Shown here: piece after piece, positions 7,127 to 47,473 of the stretch
Position numbering within the stretch: position 1 is the first letter of the stretch
How the letters are laid out: every line of letters starts with the position of its first letter
Assembly (NCBI GenBank): GCA_903916735.1
Contig: CAIWXX010000092.1
Location: 1-53,917, forward strand
Length of the DNA stretch: 53,917 nt
Origin: an uncultured Acidobacteriota bacterium
GTDB taxonomy: Bacteria > Acidobacteriota > CAIWXX01
Reading direction: 5' to 3'
The notes under the pieces: model-generated
Told to the model about the DNA's origin: nothing
Database searches by the model: none
Seen by the model: only the letters and a program-made list of their open reading frames with translations
Program-made: the position numbers and the translations under genes

Positions 7127-7221
7127 TGGCGGAGGCGGATGGGAATCGAACCCACCCAACGGCCATAAGCCGCCGCACTGGATTTGAAGTCCAGGGGAGC
7201 CACCAGACCCCTTTCGCCTCC
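7127..7221 (-). tRNA. selC: tRNA-Sec (UCA anticodon)
   Basis: On the minus strand a 95-nt tRNA begins GGAGGCGAAAGGGG and ends GCCTCCGCCA, with encoded CCA. The anticodon arm is CTGGA-CTTCAAA-TCCAG, giving anticodon TCA. The D-region and the extended variable arm (TGCGGCGGC-TTAT-GGCCGTTG type) and the 95-nt length are characteristic of selenocysteine tRNA, not of a suppressor. The T loop is GTTCGATTC. It implies SelA, SelB and SelD elsewhere in the genome. No selenoprotein is certain in this window. Confidence 0.93.
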
Positions 7222-27877: not shown

Positions 27878-30800
27878 CTATTCTCCGCGGCCCCCCTGGC
27901 ATGTCGTCTCTTCCAGAAGCCTGGGTTGATGCGAGACACGTTGAGGCTTCATTTCCGCCGGCTTCATTTTGACATCATCCAGAAATCCGATCCAATCAAC
28001 AGTGAGTGAGCAGGCGCCGGCGTCGGTTTCGACCTTCCCGCGAAGGACATAGGGTTTGACACGCGACAACATGTGGCAGAACCGGCGATAGGCATCGGGG
28101 AAGAAAATGGTCTCGTAGATGGCGGTTGTGTCTTCGAAGCTGACGAACTCCATCGGCTCTTCCTTCTTTGTGTACACAAGCTTGGATGTGACGAGCCAGC
28201 CGATCATCGTGACGCGCCGGCCCGTGTGGCGATGCATCTCGGATGCCGGCACGTACGAGAGCTGTCGGAGCACTTCGCGATGGAGTTCCAGAGGGTGGCG
28301 GCTGATTAAAAAGTCCAGGGTCTCGATTTCATGACGAAGGAGTGTATGCGCGTCATATTCATGGCAGTTGCCGGTTGTCGGTTCCCAGTTCCCAGCTTCT
28401 CTGGGAACGCTCTGTCTGGGAGCTGGTAACTGAGAACCGGAAATTTCTTCAAAAAGTCCCGGTTGATGAATCTGCGGCTTCTCGCGCGCCATGAGCTCAT
28501 ACAGCCTCCACATCATGGCCGGGCGTGTCATGCCGAATGAATCGAGACAACCGGCCTTGATGAGGATCTTCACGTCGGAAGGCGGGATGTGCATCCGGTT
28601 CATAAATTCATCAAAACTCCGAAAAGGCCCGTTTTTCCGCCGTTCGGCGACAATCTGCTCGGCCGATGTTCTGTTGAGGGACTTGAGTTGCATGAGGCCG
28701 ACGCGAACCCAACCACGGTCGGAGTTGCCAGTTGCCGGTCCCCAGTTCCCCGTCTCTTTTGAGACGTTTTGACTACTGAGAACTGGGAACTGAGAACTGG
28801 CAACTTCTCTGCAATGAGAATGGCTCAATCCTGTATACGCGATCTCACTTTCATTCACATCAGGAGGCAATACCTGCAGTCCCATCCGCCGCGCCTCGCT
28901 GACATAAGCAAATGCCGAATAATACCCACCCTGGTTTGAAATCACGGAGGCAATGAATTCTGCCGGGTAGTGCGCTCGCAAGTAGGCACTCTTGAAGCTC
29001 ACCATCGCATAGCTCGCGCTGTGCGGCTTGCAGAAGCTGTAGCCGCTGAACGAAAGGATCTGCTCCCAGATCTGCCGGATAACGGCACTCGGCACACCTC
29101 GCTCCCGCGCGCCCTGGAGGAACTGCTGATAGTAATCCCTGAGCTTCTTCTCGCGGTGTTTCTTCGTCAAAATCTTCCGAAGCTGATCGCCGTCGTATGC
29201 CGAAAAACCCGCCAGCGCCATCGCGATTTGTGTGACGTGTTCCTGATAGATCATCACACCGTAGGTCTCGTCGAGCACCGGCTGGAGCAACGAGTGCATG
29301 TGCTGCCATTTCTCGCCGTGCATCCTCCGCACGAAGATATGAATGAACTTATTCGACGCCGGCCGGATGATCGATGTCGCCATCACGAGATGCTCAAAAA
29401 TGTCCTTCTCCTCGTAGCCGGGATAGCGGTTGTCGCCCCACATCTTCTTTAATAACAGGCGCGTCGCCGGCGATTCGATGTAAAAGCATCCCATGGTATC
29501 GCCTTGCTGGATCAGCCGGCATGTGGCCGGATCGTCAGCGGGACGCCAGCGGCCAATGTCGAACTCGTCGAAGCAGTTCTTAGTTCCCAGTTGCCGGTTC
29601 TCAGCAGGAGGAGCCGCGGAGTCACTTAGAACTGAGAACTGAGAACCGAGAGCTCCGTTTCTGCGAACCGCCGCCATGGCATCGCGGATGACGGCCAGAC
29701 TGCGATTGCCGAGCAGGTCGATCTTGACGAGTCCCGCGTCCTCAGTCTGATCCTTTTCCCATTGAATGACCTGTAACCCCTTGGGAGCGATCTCGACCGG
29801 CACATATTTGCGAATTTCATCAGGGACGATGACAACACCACCGCAGTGCAGAGAAATGTACCGGAAGTGCCCGGACAGCCGCCGCGCCGTATCGATGATC
29901 TCCGGCCACGGAGGTGAGAGTTGAAGATCCTTGAATAGCGGGTGGCGTGAGATCGCATCGAACGGCACGTCTTCATACCAGAGCTGCCCCATGCGGCTCG
30001 TGATCCTGCCGATCTCGGCATCCGGCATCCCGTACACCTTGGCGACTTCGCGGATGGCCGCTCGTGCCTGGAGCGACGGGTGATTCGCCACCATCGCACA
30101 CCGCTGATTTCCGAATTTTGAGAAAACGTAGTCGAGTATCCGATCGCGTTCATCCCACGCAAAATCCACGTCGATGTCCGGAGGATCCACGCGTCCCGGA
30201 TTCAGAAACCGTTCGAAAAAGAGATTGTGCCGGATCGGATCGACGTCGGTAATGCGAAGCGTGTAGCTCACGATCGAAGCCGCCGCGCTGCCGCGCCCGC
30301 AGGTGAGGCTGCTTTCTTTGACGATATCCTGGACGAGCAAAAAATAGTGAATGAAACGCTTCTGGCGAATGATGGCGAGCTCATATTCGATTCTGGCCGT
30401 GACAACCGGCGTCAGTTCACCATAGCGCCGGCGCGCTCCGTCAAACGTCATCTGCCGCAGCAATCGATACGCTTCTTCATCATTCAGTGACCGGTAGGCA
30501 GGGAAGATCGTCTCGCGAAAATCCCAGTCGCGCTTGCAAGAAGAGGCAACCGTGAGCGTGTTGTCGATCGCATGCGGAGCGTGAGGGAAGGATTCGGCCA
30601 TCTCGGCCGGCGTTGTCAGATACCCGCGCTCGGTTGCGACATCCTCGGGGCGCAGCCGTGAGAGGCGAGTGTTGAGCTGGATCGCGCGAAGGAATCTGTG
30701 GAAATAATAATCCTCCGGCCTCAGAAAGCGCACACGATTCGTGGCGAGTGGGGGAAGACTCAGCTGCTTGCTCAACGCATAGGCCTGATGTGCAAGGTAA

Positions 30801-31222
30801 CCGGGTGACATCTCAGCGTAGAGATCTTCAGAGCCGCCTCGCTTGAGCTTCGACAGCACTATGGCATCGTCGGTCGCTACGATCAGCCCGTCCCGCCATC
30901 GAGAAATGGCCGGTGCCAGATCAAAAGCCGGATCGCAATGCTTCTCCGAAATGATCCGGCAGAGATTGGAATAGCCGGTGGAATTCTTTACGAGCAAAAG
31001 CGCGCGGTGCCCGCCGTGCACAATCTCACTCCCGACAATCGGTTCGATGCCAGCCTCGCGCGCCGCCTGCAGGAAGAAGACGATTCCATAGAGACCATTG
31101 GTGTCGGTGAGCGCGATCATTCGATAGCCCATTTCCACAGCCCCCGCAACCAGATCGTGAGGTGACGCGACGCCTTCCATTTTGCTGTAGGAGGAGTGGA
31201 TGTTGAGGTGAATGAAGCGCAT
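27878..31222 (-). CDS. dnaE2: error-prone DNA polymerase III alpha subunit (DnaE2 type)
   Basis: 1114 aa; family members are usually somewhat shorter. The N-terminal PHP domain (HLNIHSSYSK, ALTDTNGLYG) is followed by the polymerase core with GRGSAAASIVSY and the catalytic PDIDVDF (about 345-351), KIDLLGNRSL, YQEHVTQIAMALAGFS, then FSGYSFCKPHSASYA and C-terminal HhH and OB-fold regions. It performs translesion synthesis with ImuB. Three hairpin repeats encode in-frame peptides of about 27-30 residues near positions 521-549, 805-833 and 925-953, probably surface loops. The start is ATG 31222; its RBS region (GGAACTGGGAACTAAC) is itself heptad-repeat sequence. It sits downstream of imuB and an unknown gene. 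Confidence 0.9.
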   Translation of the reverse strand: MRFIHLNIHSSYSKMEGVASPHDLVAGAVEMGYRMIALTDTNGLYGIVFFLQAAREAGIEPIVGSEIVHGGHRALLLVKNSTGYSNLCRIISEKHCDPAFDLAPAISRWRDGLIVATDDAIVLSKLKRGGSEDLYAEMSPGYLAHQAYALSKQLSLPPLATNRVRFLRPEDYYFHRFLRAIQLNTRLSRLRPEDVATERGYLTTPAEMAESFPHAPHAIDNTLTVASSCKRDWDFRETIFPAYRSLNDEEAYRLLRQMTFDGARRRYGELTPVVTARIEYELAIIRQKRFIHYFLLVQDIVKESSLTCGRGSAAASIVSYTLRITDVDPIRHNLFFERFLNPGRVDPPDIDVDFAWDERDRILDYVFSKFGNQRCAMVANHPSLQARAAIREVAKVYGMPDAEIGRITSRMGQLWYEDVPFDAISRHPLFKDLQLSPPWPEIIDTARRLSGHFRYISLHCGGVVIVPDEIRKYVPVEIAPKGLQVIQWEKDQTEDAGLVKIDLLGNRSLAVIRDAMAAVRRNGALGSQFSVLSDSAAPPAENRQLGTKNCFDEFDIGRWRPADDPATCRLIQQGDTMGCFYIESPATRLLLKKMWGDNRYPGYEEKDIFEHLVMATSIIRPASNKFIHIFVRRMHGEKWQHMHSLLQPVLDETYGVMIYQEHVTQIAMALAGFSAYDGDQLRKILTKKHREKKLRDYYQQFLQGARERGVPSAVIRQIWEQILSFSGYSFCKPHSASYAMVSFKSAYLRAHYPAEFIASVISNQGGYYSAFAYVSEARRMGLQVLPPDVNESEIAYTGLSHSHCREVASSQFPVLSSQNVSKETGNWGPATGNSDRGWVRVGLMQLKSLNRTSAEQIVAERRKNGPFRSFDEFMNRMHIPPSDVKILIKAGCLDSFGMTRPAMMWRLYELMAREKPQIHQPGLFEEISGSQLPAPRQSVPREAGNWEPTTGNCHEYDAHTLLRHEIETLDFLISRHPLELHREVLRQLSYVPASEMHRHTGRRVTMIGWLVTSKLVYTKKEEPMEFVSFEDTTAIYETIFFPDAYRRFCHMLSRVKPYVLRGKVETDAGACSLTVDWIGFLDDVKMKPAEMKPQRVSHQPRLLEETTCQGGRGE
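28364..28440. repeat. heptad-repeat hairpin within dnaE2 (copy 3)
   Basis: Arms built from AGTTCCC/GGTTCCC-type heptads (28364-28398) and their inverse (28402-28440) are inserted in frame, encoding SQLPAPRQ...AGNWEPTTGN near residues 925-953. Confidence 0.75.
28723..28806. repeat. heptad-repeat hairpin within dnaE2 (copy 2)
   Basis: The best-preserved copy. Left arm 28723-28755 carries AGTTGCC/AGTTCCC units and right arm 28777-28806 the inverse (GAACTGG GAACTGA GAACTGG), around a GTCTC...GAGAC core. It is translated in frame as SSQFPVLSSQ...TGNWGPATGN. Confidence 0.85.
29576..29655. repeat. heptad-repeat hairpin within dnaE2 (copy 1)
   Basis: Left arm TTAGTTCCCAGTTGCCGGTT and right arm of GAACTGA/GAACCGA units surround a short G+C spacer. 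It encodes GSQFSVLSDSAAPPAENRQL near residues 521-549 without breaking the frame. Confidence 0.8.
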
Positions 31223-31223
31223 G

Positions 31224-31238
31224 TTAGTTCCCAGTTCC
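31224..31238. repeat. heptad half-site upstream of dnaE2
   Basis: TAGTTCCCAGTTCC lies directly before the dnaE2 ATG on the opposite strand and is inverted relative to the heptads at 31552-31585. The pair brackets the four-helix-bundle fragment and one copy of the 225-bp repeat. Confidence 0.65.
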
Positions 31239-31461
31239 TAACGCGGCAGAGCCGCAACCAACGAAGGTGGCTTCGACAACCATCGCACCCGAACCTCTCA
31301 GGAATGCAGGAAGAGAGGAAAGCAGGAACGGATTTTGATATCGACCAGTGGTGATTCCATAAACCATTCCTGCATTCCTTAAGTTTCCTGAGATGAATTC
31401 ACACTTCTGCATGACCACAACTTTTGCCATTTTGTGCACAGATGTCACCTGTTAGACACTA
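31238..31461 (-). repeat. dispersed repeat A, copy 1 (about 224 bp)
   Basis: Read on the minus strand it runs from TAGTGTCTAA (31461) to GCCGCGTTAG (31238). It shares with copies at 34195, 37215 and 47244 the blocks AAAATGGCAA, GGAATGCAGGAATGG, CCGTTCCTGCTTTC, CTTCCTGCATTCCTGAGAGG, GGGTGCGATG and GGTTGCGGCTNTGCCGCGTTAG. The centre is an imperfect inverted repeat. It interrupts the four-helix-bundle gene. Confidence 0.85.
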
Positions 31462-31536: not shown

Positions 31537-32001
31537 TCATCTCCTTTCCAATAACTGAGAACTGAGGACCGGCAACTGGGAACTGTCATCAAAACTGCAC
31601 CGTAACCATTTTCCATCTCGCCACACAAAATCCGCCTTGTCGATAAGATCTGTTTGTTGGACTTCGTTCCGCATATCATCTGCGTCCCGGCCGGCAAACG
31701 AGATGACCGTCACGTGAGGGCCGGCTTGGTCATCTTCCTGAAACAGATAAATCTTTTTACCCCAGCCGTTGTAAAAAACATTCCTGGTTTTCAGAACGCG
31801 GGAGACAAAGAGCCTTTTCGCATCGGCCGCCGCCGGGTTCTTCATGCAGGTCGCCCCGATGTACTCCATGTGAACGCGTGTCACGTTCGCCAACACCCGG
31901 TCACGACAGTGCAGCGCACATCGCGTGGCCATCGGAGCAAGAGAGAGCGTTGCAAGGACACAGGCACTCAGACGAATCATGATGGATCTGTTCACGCACA
32001 T
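31537..32001 (-). CDS. unknown signal-peptide protein in the mutagenesis cassette
   Basis: 154 aa. The start ATG 32001 (GAGG 5 nt upstream) lies inside the end of imuB, overlapping it by 10 nt, so translation is coupled. Residues about 8-26 (MIRLSACVLATLSLAPMA) look like a signal peptide or membrane anchor. The mature part has a few Cys (CALHC, TCMKN) and a beta-rich central section (KKIYLFQEDDQAGPHVTVISFAGRDADD). The last 20 residues (SSQLPVLSSQ...) come from heptad-repeat DNA, so the natural C-terminus may be lost. No family is recognised. It sits where some imuB-dnaE2 cassettes are contiguous; a role in mutagenesis is inferred from position only. Confidence 0.6.
   Translation of the reverse strand: MCVNRSIMIRLSACVLATLSLAPMATRCALHCRDRVLANVTRVHMEYIGATCMKNPAAADAKRLFVSRVLKTRNVFYNGWGKKIYLFQEDDQAGPHVTVISFAGRDADDMRNEVQQTDLIDKADFVWRDGKWLRCSFDDSSQLPVLSSQLLERR
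31552..31585. repeat. heptad repeats downstream of the unknown gene's body
   Basis: TAACTGAGAACTGAGGACCGGCAACTGGGAACTG is a run of AACTGAG/AACTGGG-type heptads. It is inverted relative to the half-site at 31224-31238 and codes for the C-terminus of the preceding unknown protein. Confidence 0.75.
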
Positions 32002-33383
32002 AGGGACCTCATTTCTGATGACAGAGGGGATCTTTCACGAGGCGCTTGTTGGAGGAGGGATACTTGGAATGGGAGCTGAAGCGGGGGTGCGGAGGAGCCG
32101 AGGAGCGGAGGAGTTGCCGGTACCACCTTCACCTCTGCTCCTCGGCACCTCTGCCCCTCCGCATCCGCTATGGCTTCCTTTTTTTTTACAGCGCCGGGAG
32201 GGACCCGCCCGAACCGGACCGCTGCATATCCATGCTTTCCGCGGATCCGGTCGAGTGCTTCGAGCAAGCCGCTGTGCCGTACAGAAACGTCATCCGATTC
32301 CTCATCGAAATCCAGATCAAGCTGCCTCGGCCTTTTTTCGGCATGCGCGAATGACACCTTCATGTGACGGACCCGTGTACGCCGTTCATTGGCCTTGAAA
32401 TAGAGTTTTTCGATCACTGCGTACAGATCGAAATCCTGGAAAGACGGGATTGGCAGGTCTGCACGGCGCGTCGTTTCAACTCCATCCGAGTATCGCACCG
32501 TCAGTGTCGCATCGCCGGCCCGCAGTTCGGCGGTACGCATCCGGGCCGCGATCTGTTCGACAAGCGAGTAGAGATGGCCGAGGAGCACCCGGTCGTCGTT
32601 TGTGTCTTCGGCCAGCGTGATCTCATCGGCACTGGCCGGCCGGCGCACGGGCGGGCGGACGGGATCGAGGTCGAGCCCAAGAGCGCGCTGATGCAGGACG
32701 ATCGCAAATGCACCGAAGATCATCCGTAAATGGGGGAGGGAGATCGTGGCGATTTCCCCGATGAGCTTCACGTTCAGATCATCAAAGAGCGTCCGCACAC
32801 GGGCATCCCCAACGCCCGGCAGCAGACGGACGCTGAGCGGCGCAATGAAAGATGCTTCATTCCCACGCTCGACATCGATAATCCTTCGAGGAGGCACTGT
32901 GCGAGCCGCGATGCGCGAAACCAGCTTGTTGGCGGCGATTCCCAACGACGCTCTCATCGTCATGCCCCGCTCGAGTTCCTTCTCGACCCGCCACGCCACG
33001 TCCCGCGGCGGCCCGAAAAGTCTCCGGCTGCCGCTCATGTCCAGAAAAATATGTCCCGGCGCGTGCGGTTCCCAGAGCGGTGTGAACTGCGCCACCAGCA
33101 TCCCCAGCGCGCTTGAGGCCTTCTCATAGAGACCTGGGTTCGGCGAGATGACCGTGAGTCCCCGGCAGATCCTCAACGCCACGCCCAATGTCATCCCTTC
33201 CGAAATCCCCTCGGCCCGCGCCTCCCGCGACACTTCCAGCAGCGGCGAACGAGATGAGTGGGGGAGAGCAACGGCAACGGGCCGCTCTCGCAGTCGCGGC
33301 GCACCAACGCGCTCCACTTCGATCCGAAAGGAGGAGACGTTGAGATAGAGGATATCGCGGGTGAACATATAACGCTTCTTCAA
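31992..33383 (-). CDS. imuB: ImuB-like Y-family polymerase paralogue, catalytically degenerate
   Basis: 463 aa. Y-family palm and little-finger architecture, but the first catalytic Asp is Asn15 (ILYLNVSSFRIEVE) and the second pair is D115-M116 (HIFLDMSGSRRLFG) instead of Asp-Glu. This is as in ImuB, which recruits DnaE2 without synthesising DNA itself. A beta-clamp-binding-like QLDLDF sits at about 354-359. The conserved region ends at about 393 (AAVRFGR). The following 70 residues are encoded by a purine-rich hairpin repeat (TPPLLGSSAPPLQ) and are probably acquired. The start is TTG 33383 or ATG 33368. It overlaps the downstream unknown gene. No ImuA/RecA-like gene is present. Confidence 0.85.
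   Translation of the reverse strand: MKKRYMFTRDILYLNVSSFRIEVERVGAPRLRERPVAVALPHSSRSPLLEVSREARAEGISEGMTLGVALRICRGLTVISPNPGLYEKASSALGMLVAQFTPLWEPHAPGHIFLDMSGSRRLFGPPRDVAWRVEKELERGMTMRASLGIAANKLVSRIAARTVPPRRIIDVERGNEASFIAPLSVRLLPGVGDARVRTLFDDLNVKLIGEIATISLPHLRMIFGAFAIVLHQRALGLDLDPVRPPVRRPASADEITLAEDTNDDRVLLGHLYSLVEQIAARMRTAELRAGDATLTVRYSDGVETTRRADLPIPSFQDFDLYAVIEKLYFKANERRTRVRHMKVSFAHAEKRPRQLDLDFDEESDDVSVRHSGLLEALDRIRGKHGYAAVRFGRVPPGAVKKKEAIADAEGQRCRGAEVKVVPATPPLLGSSAPPLQLPFQVSLLQQAPRERSPLSSEMRSLCA
32085..32166. repeat. GGAGGAGC-type hairpin repeat forming the ImuB tail
   Basis: Left arm 32085-32113 and right arm 32138-32166 are an imperfect 29-nt inverted repeat made of GGAGGAG/CGAGGAG units, about 80 percent paired. 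It lies in the 3' end of imuB, downstream of the conserved domain. Confidence 0.75.
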
Positions 33384-33536: not shown

Positions 33537-34148
33537 TCACCTGACATACCGCACCACACCCACCAGAATCCCCTGGATCTCGACATCCGATGCACTCACC
33601 ACGATCGGCATCATTGCCGCGTTCGCCGGGCGAAGCTCGATTCTCCCATCACCGCGCGGATGGAATTTCTTCACAGTGGCGGCATGCCGATTGAGCAACG
33701 CAACGACTGTCTGCCCGGTTTCAGCCGTTGATTGCCTCCGCACAACGATGTAATCACCATCCACGATACCTTCCTCGATCATCGAATCCCCCTTCACTTT
33801 CAAAACGAAGTTTTCGCCCTTCGCAACCATGGGCGAAGGTACTTCGAATGCATCGAGCTCCTCGATGGCTTCGATTGGTTTGCCGGCGGCGATCGTTCCG
33901 ACAAGCGGCAAGAAAGAAGAGGAGGACTCGCCGGCACCGACAACTTCAATCGCGCGTTTCTGATTCCACGCCATTTTGATGTAACCGTGAGCCACGAGCC
34001 GCCGCAGATAATTCTGCACCGTCCCAAGTGACCGGAATCCGAAATGCTGTGCCATCTCCTCCTGGCTCGGGACCATGCCATTAACCTGCTGAAAATCAAT
34101 GATGTAATCGAGAATTTTCTTCTGTTTGGGCGTCAAGCTTCTTTTCAT
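33537..34148 (-). CDS. lexA: LexA repressor
   Basis: 203 aa from ATG 34148 (MKRSLTPKQKKILDYI, the classical LexA start); an in-frame ATG at 34154 directly abuts the -10 box. N-terminal winged helix with SQEEMAQHFGFRSLGTVQNYLRRL. The C-terminal S24 peptidase domain has the Ala-Gly cleavage site in GTIAAGKP, Ser in GDSMIEEGI and Lys in ATVKKFH. It represses SOS genes and is cleaved on RecA activation. It lies upstream of imuB and dnaE2 on the same strand, with 153 bp before imuB. Confidence 0.95.
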   Translation of the reverse strand: MKRSLTPKQKKILDYIIDFQQVNGMVPSQEEMAQHFGFRSLGTVQNYLRRLVAHGYIKMAWNQKRAIEVVGAGESSSSFLPLVGTIAAGKPIEAIEELDAFEVPSPMVAKGENFVLKVKGDSMIEEGIVDGDYIVVRRQSTAETGQTVVALLNRHAATVKKFHPRGDGRIELRPANAAMMPIVVSASDVEIQGILVGVVRYVR

Positions 34149-34154
34149 ATCCAT

Positions 34155-34183: not shown

Positions 34184-34194
34184 GAGAGAGGGAT

Positions 34195-34424
34195 TAGTGT
34201 CTAAACGGCGAAATGTCGACACGAAATGGCAAGAACTTCGGAACATGCAAGATCCCATCCGAACCTTTGAGGAATGCAGGAAGTAAGGAAACCAGGAACG
34301 AACCGACCATTGCCAGCACACTACCTTCCGTTCCTGTATTCCTCCCTTCCTGACTTCCTGAGAGGTCTGGAGTCCCTCTGTGATGCGGCCACCGTCTTTG
34401 GTTCTGGCTCCGCCAGGTTTTAGG
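34195..34424 (+). repeat. dispersed repeat A, copy 2 (about 230 bp)
   Basis: It runs from TAGTGTCTAA to a diverged GGTTCTGGCTCCGCCAGG-TTTTAG end, with the central GGAATGCAGGAAG and TTCCTGACTTCCTGAGAGG blocks. It is the most diverged copy and begins 12 nt upstream of the lexA -35 box. Confidence 0.75.
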
Positions 34425-37147: not shown

Positions 37148-37214
37148 GAGCGGTATTGTTTCTTCATAGCGTGCAGCTGTCAAGCAAAAAGGGCAAGGAA
37201 ATGATTCCACCGAT

Positions 37215-37345
37215 TAGTGTCTGATCGGTGAAATCCGTGCACAAAACGGCAAAAGTTGTGATCAGGCAGAATCGTGAATTCCTGAGAGGTTCGGGTGCGA
37301 TGGTTGTCAAAGCCACCTTGTTTGGTTGCGGCTATGCCGCGTTAG
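37215..37345 (+). repeat. dispersed repeat A, copy 3 (131 bp, internally deleted)
   Basis: It keeps both ends (TAGTGTCTGATCGGTGAAATC and GGTTGCGGCTATGCCGCGTTAG) but lacks the central inverted-repeat block between GAATTC and CCTGAGAGG. Confidence 0.85.
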
Positions 37346-45269: not shown

Positions 45270-45619
45270 GGGGGCGTATAGGGTTCGACGGGGATAATGA
45301 GGTCTTTAGTGGCACGCCAGGGCCCACCACCCCTGTAAAAAAGGTGGAAACTAAAAACTGCTAACAATCAGCTAGCACTAGCCGCTTAATGCGGCTACGC
45401 TCCCGGTGATCAGCCTGCGGGTTGCCGAGGGGCGTCAATTAGCAGGATAAGCCCAACCAAGATGCCCCATCGTGGAAGGGATGAAAATTTAAAAGGGGCT
45501 GGCAGGTCGAGCCCGCTGGCCGGCTGAACGACATGCGAGACAATGTTGGCTGGATAAGCGTGTAGAGGCTATCGGCTGAAGATTTCCGGACGCGGGTTCA
45601 ATTCCCGCCGCCTCCACCA
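45270..45619 (+). ncRNA. ssrA: tmRNA
   Basis: 350 nt. The 5' end GGGGGCGTATAGGGTTCGACGGGG and 3' end GGGTTCAATTCCCGCCGCCTCCACCA pair as the Ala-tRNA-like acceptor and T arm. The tag frame begins at the resume codon GCT 45360 and reads ANNQLALAA before TAA 45387-45389. This is a short 9-residue tag ending in the usual LAA degradation signal. Pseudoknot regions follow. It rescues stalled ribosomes with SmpB, which is not in this window. Confidence 0.95.
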
Positions 45620-46625: not shown

Positions 46626-47246
46626 TTGAATTCTTCACTGCAATTACGAATTATCTATTTCCTGCTAGCGGTGCTCGGAGTGGCAACTCTTCTGACAGCG
46701 ATCATTTTCTTCATGACACGCAACCAGAGTGGCAATAATGATACGGCAGCCTCCAAATATACGGTTTCCAACCGCCCGCTGTACACTGCTGCTGAAAATA
46801 GGAGGAAAGTTACTCTTTTTTTCCCTGGAACCAACGGCTTCTTGCTGATTCCAAGAGAACGTGAGATTTACGCTACGAGCGCCATTACAAATCAGATGAA
46901 ACAGATCGTCGTTGAATTGATTAAAGGGCCCGGCCCTGACGATGATAAGGCACTACCAGCTCTTCCGGAATCAACTCGTCTGCGCGAAGTCTATCTGCGG
47001 GGGGATACGGCCTATGTCGATCTCACGAAGGATGTCTCCGAAAACCTACCTGGAGGCAGTGAAGCAGAATTGCTTACAATTTATTCAGTTGTTGATTCTC
47101 TGACGTTCAACTTCACCGAGATCAAGTGCGTCAAGATCCTCGTCGAAGGAGCTGAAGTGGAAACGCTGACTGGACATATCGATCTGACCAAGCCTCTCTT
47201 CAAGGATCTCGGCTTCGTGAGCAACGTTCCAACGCCGGGTGTTTAG
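46626..47246 (+). CDS. GerMN-domain membrane-anchored protein
   Basis: 206 aa. Start TTG 46626, within a short overlapping open frame that ends there, so it is of uncertain efficiency. One N-terminal TM helix (about 9-31) and a GerMN domain (about 62-195) with VTLFFPGTNGFLLIPRERE, IVVELIKGPG and TAYVDLTKDVSEN. GerMN proteins occur with amidases and RNase PH and are linked to envelope and sporulation-like processes. The stop codon TAG is the first base triplet of repeat A copy 4, so the C-terminus may be altered by insertion. Confidence 0.78.
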   Translation: MNSSLQLRIIYFLLAVLGVATLLTAIIFFMTRNQSGNNDTAASKYTVSNRPLYTAAENRRKVTLFFPGTNGFLLIPREREIYATSAITNQMKQIVVELIKGPGPDDDKALPALPESTRLREVYLRGDTAYVDLTKDVSENLPGGSEAELLTIYSVVDSLTFNFTEIKCVKILVEGAEVETLTGHIDLTKPLFKDLGFVSNVPTPGV

Positions 47247-47473
47247 TGTCTAATCGGTGAAATCTTTGCATAAAATGGCAAGACCTGTGACAGGGCATAA
47301 TCATGAATTCCTCTCAGGAAGCCATGAATGGAGGAATGCAGGAATGGCTTATGAAACCACCGCTGGTCGACATAAAAAACCGTTCCTGCTTTCTTATCTT
47401 CCTGCATTCCTGAGAGGTTTGGGTGCGATGATTGTGGAAGTCATCTTGTTTGGTTGCGGCTATGCCGCGTTAG
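47244..47473 (+). repeat. dispersed repeat A, copy 4 (about 230 bp)
   Basis: It runs from TAGTGTCTAATCGGTGAAATC to GGTTGCGGCTATGCCGCGTTAG with the full central inverted-repeat block (GGAATGCAGGAATGG ... CTTCCTGCATTCCTGAGAGG). It encodes an open frame similar to that of copy 1 (FLLSYLPAFLRG, then GAM and GCG-AAL). Confidence 0.85.

Follow-up and report, generated by a model that had tools for sequence, protein, structure and literature searches.

Copies of a dispersed heptad repeat lying in frame at three loops of an acidobacterial dnaE2, with other hosts' own repeats at the corresponding loops of their DnaE2

Introduction

Di Nocera et al. 2013 described in-frame REPs within the genes of DnaE2, UvrA/B, RecB, Pol I and other proteins. 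A gene may carry two of them, or be the one gene of its species with any, and flexible loops were suggested for them (PMC3733652). The TAACTGA heptamer direct repeats (MacGregor 2015) lie mostly between genes and near gene ends; their reverse orientation is stop-free and is occasionally translated as LSVISYQ (PMC4679880). The Rickettsia palindromic elements (Ogata 2000, 2002) are described (PMC10969869) as ~100-150 bp elements of conserved sequence occurring in many genes. We examined three heptad-repeat hairpins proposed, by a reading of the sequence alone, to lie within the dnaE2 gene of an acidobacterial genome assembled from a metagenome (5.37 Mb). The window is the whole stretch analysed, 53,917 nucleotides, and represents one contig of that assembly.

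Results

The dnaE2 gene and its neighbours

27878..31222, minus strand: dnaE2 (imuC), error-prone C-family DNA polymerase, 1114 aa, frame intact, with NCBIfam and Pfam matches
31537-32001, minus strand: short ORF that separates the ImuB-like gene from dnaE2, without a Pfam match; a heptad array encodes the tail SSQLPVLSSQLLERR at its C-terminus
31992..33383, minus strand: ImuB-like Y-family polymerase homologue (PF00817 and PF11799), the upstream neighbour of dnaE2 in a presumed SOS mutagenesis cassette
33537..34154, minus strand: lexA repressor (TIGR00498, 187.7 bits, exceeding the cut-off)

The protein has the PHP, Pol3, HhH and OB domains of DnaE2/ImuC and stops after OB without a CTD; it retains the catalytic PDIDVDF motif and other invariant residues, and the ImuB-like and LexA neighbours are those of a DnaE2/ImuC context. 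No imuA was recognised beside dnaE2, the ImuB-like gene or lexA. Compared with the nearest homologue, that of a sister-genus genome (public Acidobacteria MAG JACPPM, same family; G001), dN was 0.17 and dS was 1.47. The resulting dN/dS of ~0.12 indicates that dnaE2 is under purifying selection and, together with the intact frame, rules out a pseudogene. Two RNA genes elsewhere in the window matched Rfam, a selenocysteine tRNA gene (7131-7221, minus) and a tmRNA gene (45270-45619, plus).

Three heptad inserts within dnaE2

28366..28445, minus strand: insert E1, inverted heptad arrays 28366-28395 and 28416-28445, loop 20 nt; ~residues 926-953, peptide ISGSQLPAPRQSVPREAGNWEPTTGNC
28723..28805, minus strand: insert E2, inverted heptad arrays 28723-28752 and 28776-28805, loop 23 nt; ~residues 806-834, peptide EVASSQFPVLSSQNVSKETGNWGPATGNS
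29575..29654, minus strand: insert E3, inverted heptad arrays 29575-29604 and 29625-29654, loop 20 nt; ~residues 523-550, peptide GALGSQFSVLSDSAAPPAENRQLGTKNC

The sequence-only reading had placed hairpins at 28364-28440, 28723-28806 and 29576-29655, built of inverted AGTTCCC/GAACTGG-like heptad arms that encode similar peptides without a frame break, in a protein of 1114 aa with ~85 insert residues. All three hairpins were present within a few bases of those coordinates, the dnaE2 frame was open through all of them, and the measured excess over the three sites was ~83 residues. The calculated fold energies of the three insert regions were -42, -50 and -36 kcal/mol. Each insert consists of a ~30 nt arm of four RGTTSYC heptads, a loop of 20-23 nt and a ~30 nt inverted arm; the inserts are 80, 83 and 80 nt long, and the encoded peptides, of which NVSKETGNWGPATGN is an example in the predicted dnaE2 product, align nearly gap-free. 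The loops of E1, E2 and E3 are mutually unrelated, so that the heptads are the sole common sequence, and a CGTCTC-TTTT-GAGACG stem is present in the E2 loop only. The earlier proposal that a hairpin element landed repeatedly stands as regards insertions of a dispersed repeat; one discrete element hopping three times does not follow, because the loops are unrelated.

All three inserts are stop-free and in frame, with an identical reading phase in both arms. As the heptad unit is seven bases, any frame read along an array meets every phase of the unit. No stop arises in the RGTT orientation; in the AACY orientation, the dnaE2 inserts avoid TGA because the critical junctions are TGG, CGG, TGC or TCC.

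Orthologue alignment and predicted structure

The DnaE2 alignment comprised 82 rows (81 distinct), and loop lengths were counted over 78 near-full-length orthologues outside the family. Between its flanking invariants the E3 site is exactly 23 residues in 78/78 of these, as against 50 here (+27) and 36 in the sister genus (+13). The E2 site is 15 residues in 76/78, 51 here (+36) and 33 in the sister genus (+18). The E1 site is a naturally variable linker of 12-130 residues and is 59 residues here, an excess of about +20; since the E2 and E3 loop lengths are almost constant elsewhere, natural variability accounts for E1 only. The alignment supports reading the E1, E2 and E3 segments as insertions absent from the orthologues, and the shorter fixed-length loops at E2 and E3 rule out ordinary conserved protein segments.

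Alignment with E. coli Pol III alpha (5fku) puts E3 between the palm and the fingers, in a loop, E2 in a loop ahead of the HhH domain, and E1 in the linker from HhH to OB, directly behind a clamp-binding-like motif, QPGLF. An AlphaFold model built from 47 sequences predicted an intact polymerase fold (mean pLDDT 84.3) with the inserts in low-confidence surface loops. The internal segments predicted below pLDDT 50 were 527-553, 804-833 and 925-951, which are the three inserts, plus 918-920; the low values at the inserts partly reflect thin alignment depth there. The earlier suggestion that the inserts are tolerated as loops is in keeping with both the alignment and the model. We take QPGLF of this DnaE2 to be the internal clamp-binding motif region.

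Heptads upstream of dnaE2

31224..31238, minus strand: a pair of heptads (AGGAACT GGGAACT) that stops three bases short of the dnaE2 ATG
31555..31584, minus strand: four-heptad array within the upstream ORF 31537-32001, for which it encodes the tail SSQLPVLSSQ at the C-terminus

These two arrays are a fourth pair of heptad arms, around the dnaE2 start, that the earlier reading lacked, along with the heptad-encoded tail of the upstream ORF; the two arrays form a wide inverted pair bracketing the intergenic region. A separate intergenic repeat of ~230 nt (TTAGTGTCTAAT...CCTGAGAGGTTYGGGTGCG...GGCTATGCCGCGTTAG), without an Rfam match, has four copies in the window (31238-31461, 34194-34421, 37214-37345 and 47243-47473), one of them with an internal deletion; its first copy (31238-31461) is flanked by the two upstream heptad arms.

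Heptads across the genome and in the sister genus

The pattern RGTTSYCRGTTSYCRG, allowing at most 1 mismatch, had 114 matches in the 5.37 Mb genome and its reversed pattern had 6. Sites were classified with a home-made codon-usage gene caller for ~65 sites with flanks, covering ~0.47 Mb around the listed matches (the best ~100 of 114). Among the matches listed, arrays of at least 23 nt outside the window contig were within a gene in 0/19 cases; the 15 intragenic matches were of two heptads only, several lay in conserved motifs, e.g. a P-loop, and they look like chance. The heptads as general gene invaders are ruled out on this account. Again among the matches listed, dnaE2 was the sole gene with internal heptad hairpins, and it is therefore an exception to the extragenic habit of the heptads genome-wide, contrary to the earlier idea that they might favour coding loops.

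A gene boundary lay within 60 bp on the RGTT side in 37/50 extragenic arrays and on the other side in 10/50, and the arrays adjoined stops (23) more than starts (14), both counts being among the matches listed. The extragenic arrays (loci L212-L266) have a fixed polarity, the RGTT side toward the gene, as if bracketing intergenic regions. Most genomic heptad sites are single arms, and strong hairpins are rare outside dnaE2. Matches to the generic pattern RGTTNNN x4 are weak phylum-wide evidence, because the reversed control was also high in many genomes.

In the sister-genus dnaE2, E1 and E2 are free of heptad inserts; E3 carries AAGTTTAAAGTTAAAAGTTCAAAGTTTAAAGTTG, in frame and in a phase identical to that of the E3 heptads here. 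Its AGTTYAA heptads had 352 matches in that genome (15 for reversed controls) and 0 in this one; 1/14 of the sites sampled there was intragenic, the one in dnaE2. Two histories fit the E3 heptads of the two genera: a separate insertion in each at a single site, or one old insertion that each genome has since converted to its own version.

Host repeats in DnaE2 of other lineages

Orthologues from unrelated phyla were compared for the same peptides at the same places, and different, host-specific repeats were found there instead. The host's own repeat was in frame at E1 in seven orthologues (L097, L112, L113, L129, L132, L136 and L140), and each such repeat was multi-copy in its genome with controls near zero. 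These comprised a palindrome pair in L129 (a MAG labelled Candidatus Hatepunaea), host repeats in the Deltaproteobacteria L132, L136 and L097, and ACGCTTC heptads in the Nitrospirae L113 and L140 and in an alphaproteobacterial-labelled MAG, L112. A Calditrichaeota MAG (L139) carried CATTCCCGCGCAGGCTGGAACCCA at E2, one of 27 genomic matches (0 controls). Matches compared with reversed controls were 73 vs 2 in the L132 genome, 110 vs 0 for L140, 51 vs 0 for L113, 61 vs 0 for L097 and 20 vs 2 for L129. Repeat-like inserts at E1 of L067, L069 and L071 had one to a few genomic copies and were for that reason counted as weak. A clear host repeat was present in ~10/81 distinct DnaE2 orthologues, some by common descent.

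Sampled copies of the host repeats were extragenic in 24/24 cases in genome G121 and 12/13 in G124; in G125, 17 copies were intergenic or end-overlapping and the repeat was intragenic only in dnaE2 (contig L306); in G127, 10/11 were extragenic, the exception being a RAYT-like gene. The comparison genomes were picked for a repeat-bearing dnaE2, so these counts show that dnaE2 is exceptional there and not the frequency of insertion. The genome of L129 has a RAYT-like transposase gene (L331:2320-3075) with its own REP repeats inside and around it, and the same palindrome is in frame in the dnaE2 of that genome.

Discussion

The inserts are probably copies of the genome's dispersed RGTTSYC repeat, translated as three tolerated disordered loops, and an instance of recurrent insertion of host repeats in DnaE2. 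The dispersed heptads would have been laid down in dnaE2 as inverted arrays with four heptads per arm, and would be translated, with neither splicing nor skipping, into three disordered loops of ~27 residues at the protein surface. The DnaE2 loops may accept extra residues harmlessly, above all the HhH-OB linker after the clamp-binding motif, and the same loops elsewhere would hold whichever short repeat abounds in the host. The inserts would then persist because these loops tolerate extra residues, and because an SOS-repressed, non-essential gene costs its carriers little; DnaE2 was non-essential in every genetic study covered by a 2013 survey (PMC3919608). Translation of the inserts in vivo, their neutrality and the cause of the dnaE2 bias are what we infer. 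Unrelated bacteria with their own repeats at the same loops make DnaE2 look like a recurrent landing place. Against the tolerance account, Di Nocera et al. found repeated hits on replication and repair genes hard to call fortuitous (PMC3733652).

A variant of this explanation, differing on timing and not on function, is that the E3 insertion (perhaps E2 also) predated the split of the genera and was overwritten by each genome's heptad through conversion or targeted re-insertion. We regard it as possible though doubtful. The sister genus has +13 at E3 and +18 at E2, sites near-invariant in the 78 others, and the E3 heptads are in the same phase and of each genome's own version. However, at a dS of ~1.5 no neutral ancestral repeat would still be legible; the variant therefore needs active homogenisation, and no mechanism for that was found. 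In addition, the E1 heptads are private to this genome.

The hairpins or loops could instead be selected, as mRNA structures slowing translation or as linkers tuning clamp or ImuB access. There are three inserts in one gene, dnaE2 carries repeats in several lineages, and E1 adjoins the clamp-binding-like motif. Arms paired within their own element at 24, 24 and 22 of 30 positions, as compared with 18-26 of 30 between elements and ~22 for random heptads (0.74 x 30); pairing in cis is no better than in trans or at random, and a selected hairpin, including the slow-translation site of the earlier reading, is accordingly not supported. No Rfam match for a structured RNA was obtained within dnaE2. 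The sister genus is without E1 and E2 heptads, most orthologues have no insert, and the repeats differ between hosts and are unrelated, all of which make selection for function unlikely. It is likewise improbable, and speculative, that DnaE2 is both preferred and in part selected as a target, with host-specific extragenic repeats placed at the same loops across phyla and homogenised to the host's current repeat, as a fast-changing element tuning stress mutagenesis through clamp or partner access.

Mobilisation of a REP/REPIN-type element by this genome's Y1 (RAYT) transposase has little to recommend it. There are 16 Y1_Tnp matches in this genome, and the dnaE2 palindrome of the L129 host recurs in and around a RAYT-like gene; nevertheless, one weak two-heptad match (L149) was near 1 of 21 Y1_Tnp loci in this and the sister-genus genome, the three inserts have no common core sequence or GTAG tag, and most genomic sites are single arms and not hairpins. 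We have rejected RAYT mobilisation for this genome on the count of matches near these loci. That the inserts are not translated through, acting as ribosome-bypass elements or as a very small removed intervening sequence, is scarcely credible, since the hairpins resemble known bypass elements in outline but the three keep frame (chance 1/27) and are stop-free (chance ~0.2), the repeat inserts of other lineages are likewise in frame, and ~27 residues are too small for an intein.

Under the preferred reading, that of host repeats inserted at tolerant loops, the old remark that REPs cluster in genes for repair and error-prone polymerases becomes a specific pattern, in which defined DnaE2 loops would be filled independently by host repeats. 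This bears on the spread of short repeats without a known transposase and on the gain of disordered segments by proteins, and on whether genes of stress mutagenesis are actual targets of repeats or just tolerate them. For annotation, it warns that such DnaE2 loops may be repeat-derived and not conserved protein.

Comparison with known systems

The inserts resemble the REPs of Di Nocera et al. as short, palindromic, otherwise extragenic repeats in frame in DnaE2; they differ as a degenerate heptad array and not a GTAG/CGTC REP, in numbering three per gene, in occurring in Acidobacteria, and in that different repeats share the DnaE2 loops across lineages. Like GTAG/CGTC REPs of the REP-RAYT system, the heptads are extragenic and near gene ends (37/50 on the RGTT side and 10/50 on the other, among the matches listed); unlike them, the inserts share heptads only, without a common tag or conserved palindrome, and copies do not flank a RAYT gene, a two-heptad match occurring at 1/21 Y1_Tnp loci. 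As regards a MITE, inverted arms are present, and no empty-site allele was close enough for a target-site duplication to be read.

With the TAACTGA repeats the heptads share seven-base tandem units with an AGTT/AACT core and a stop-free orientation, which encodes SSQFSVL here. The unit here is RGTTSYC (reverse complement GRSAACY), degenerate and not an exact TAACTGA, and occurs as inverted pairs and in the interior of a conserved polymerase gene. TAACTGA repeats are mostly intergenic and upstream of starts; the heptads are also mostly intergenic, with 23 at stops vs 14 at starts among the matches listed. The Rickettsia elements are in-frame, stop-free palindromic DNA in genes of working proteins, as are the inserts; here, by contrast, 80 bp of heptads with unrelated loops are found in dnaE2 only, among the matches listed, rather than one conserved element in many genes.

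REP-like DNA translated within DnaE2 (PMC3733652) and AACTG-core heptamer repeats (PMC4679880) are already published. What appears new, in the literature searched, is the degenerate heptad hairpin as an insert, three inserts in one gene, the sharing of sites by host-specific repeats across phyla, the breaking of invariant loop lengths by inserts, and their structural mapping.
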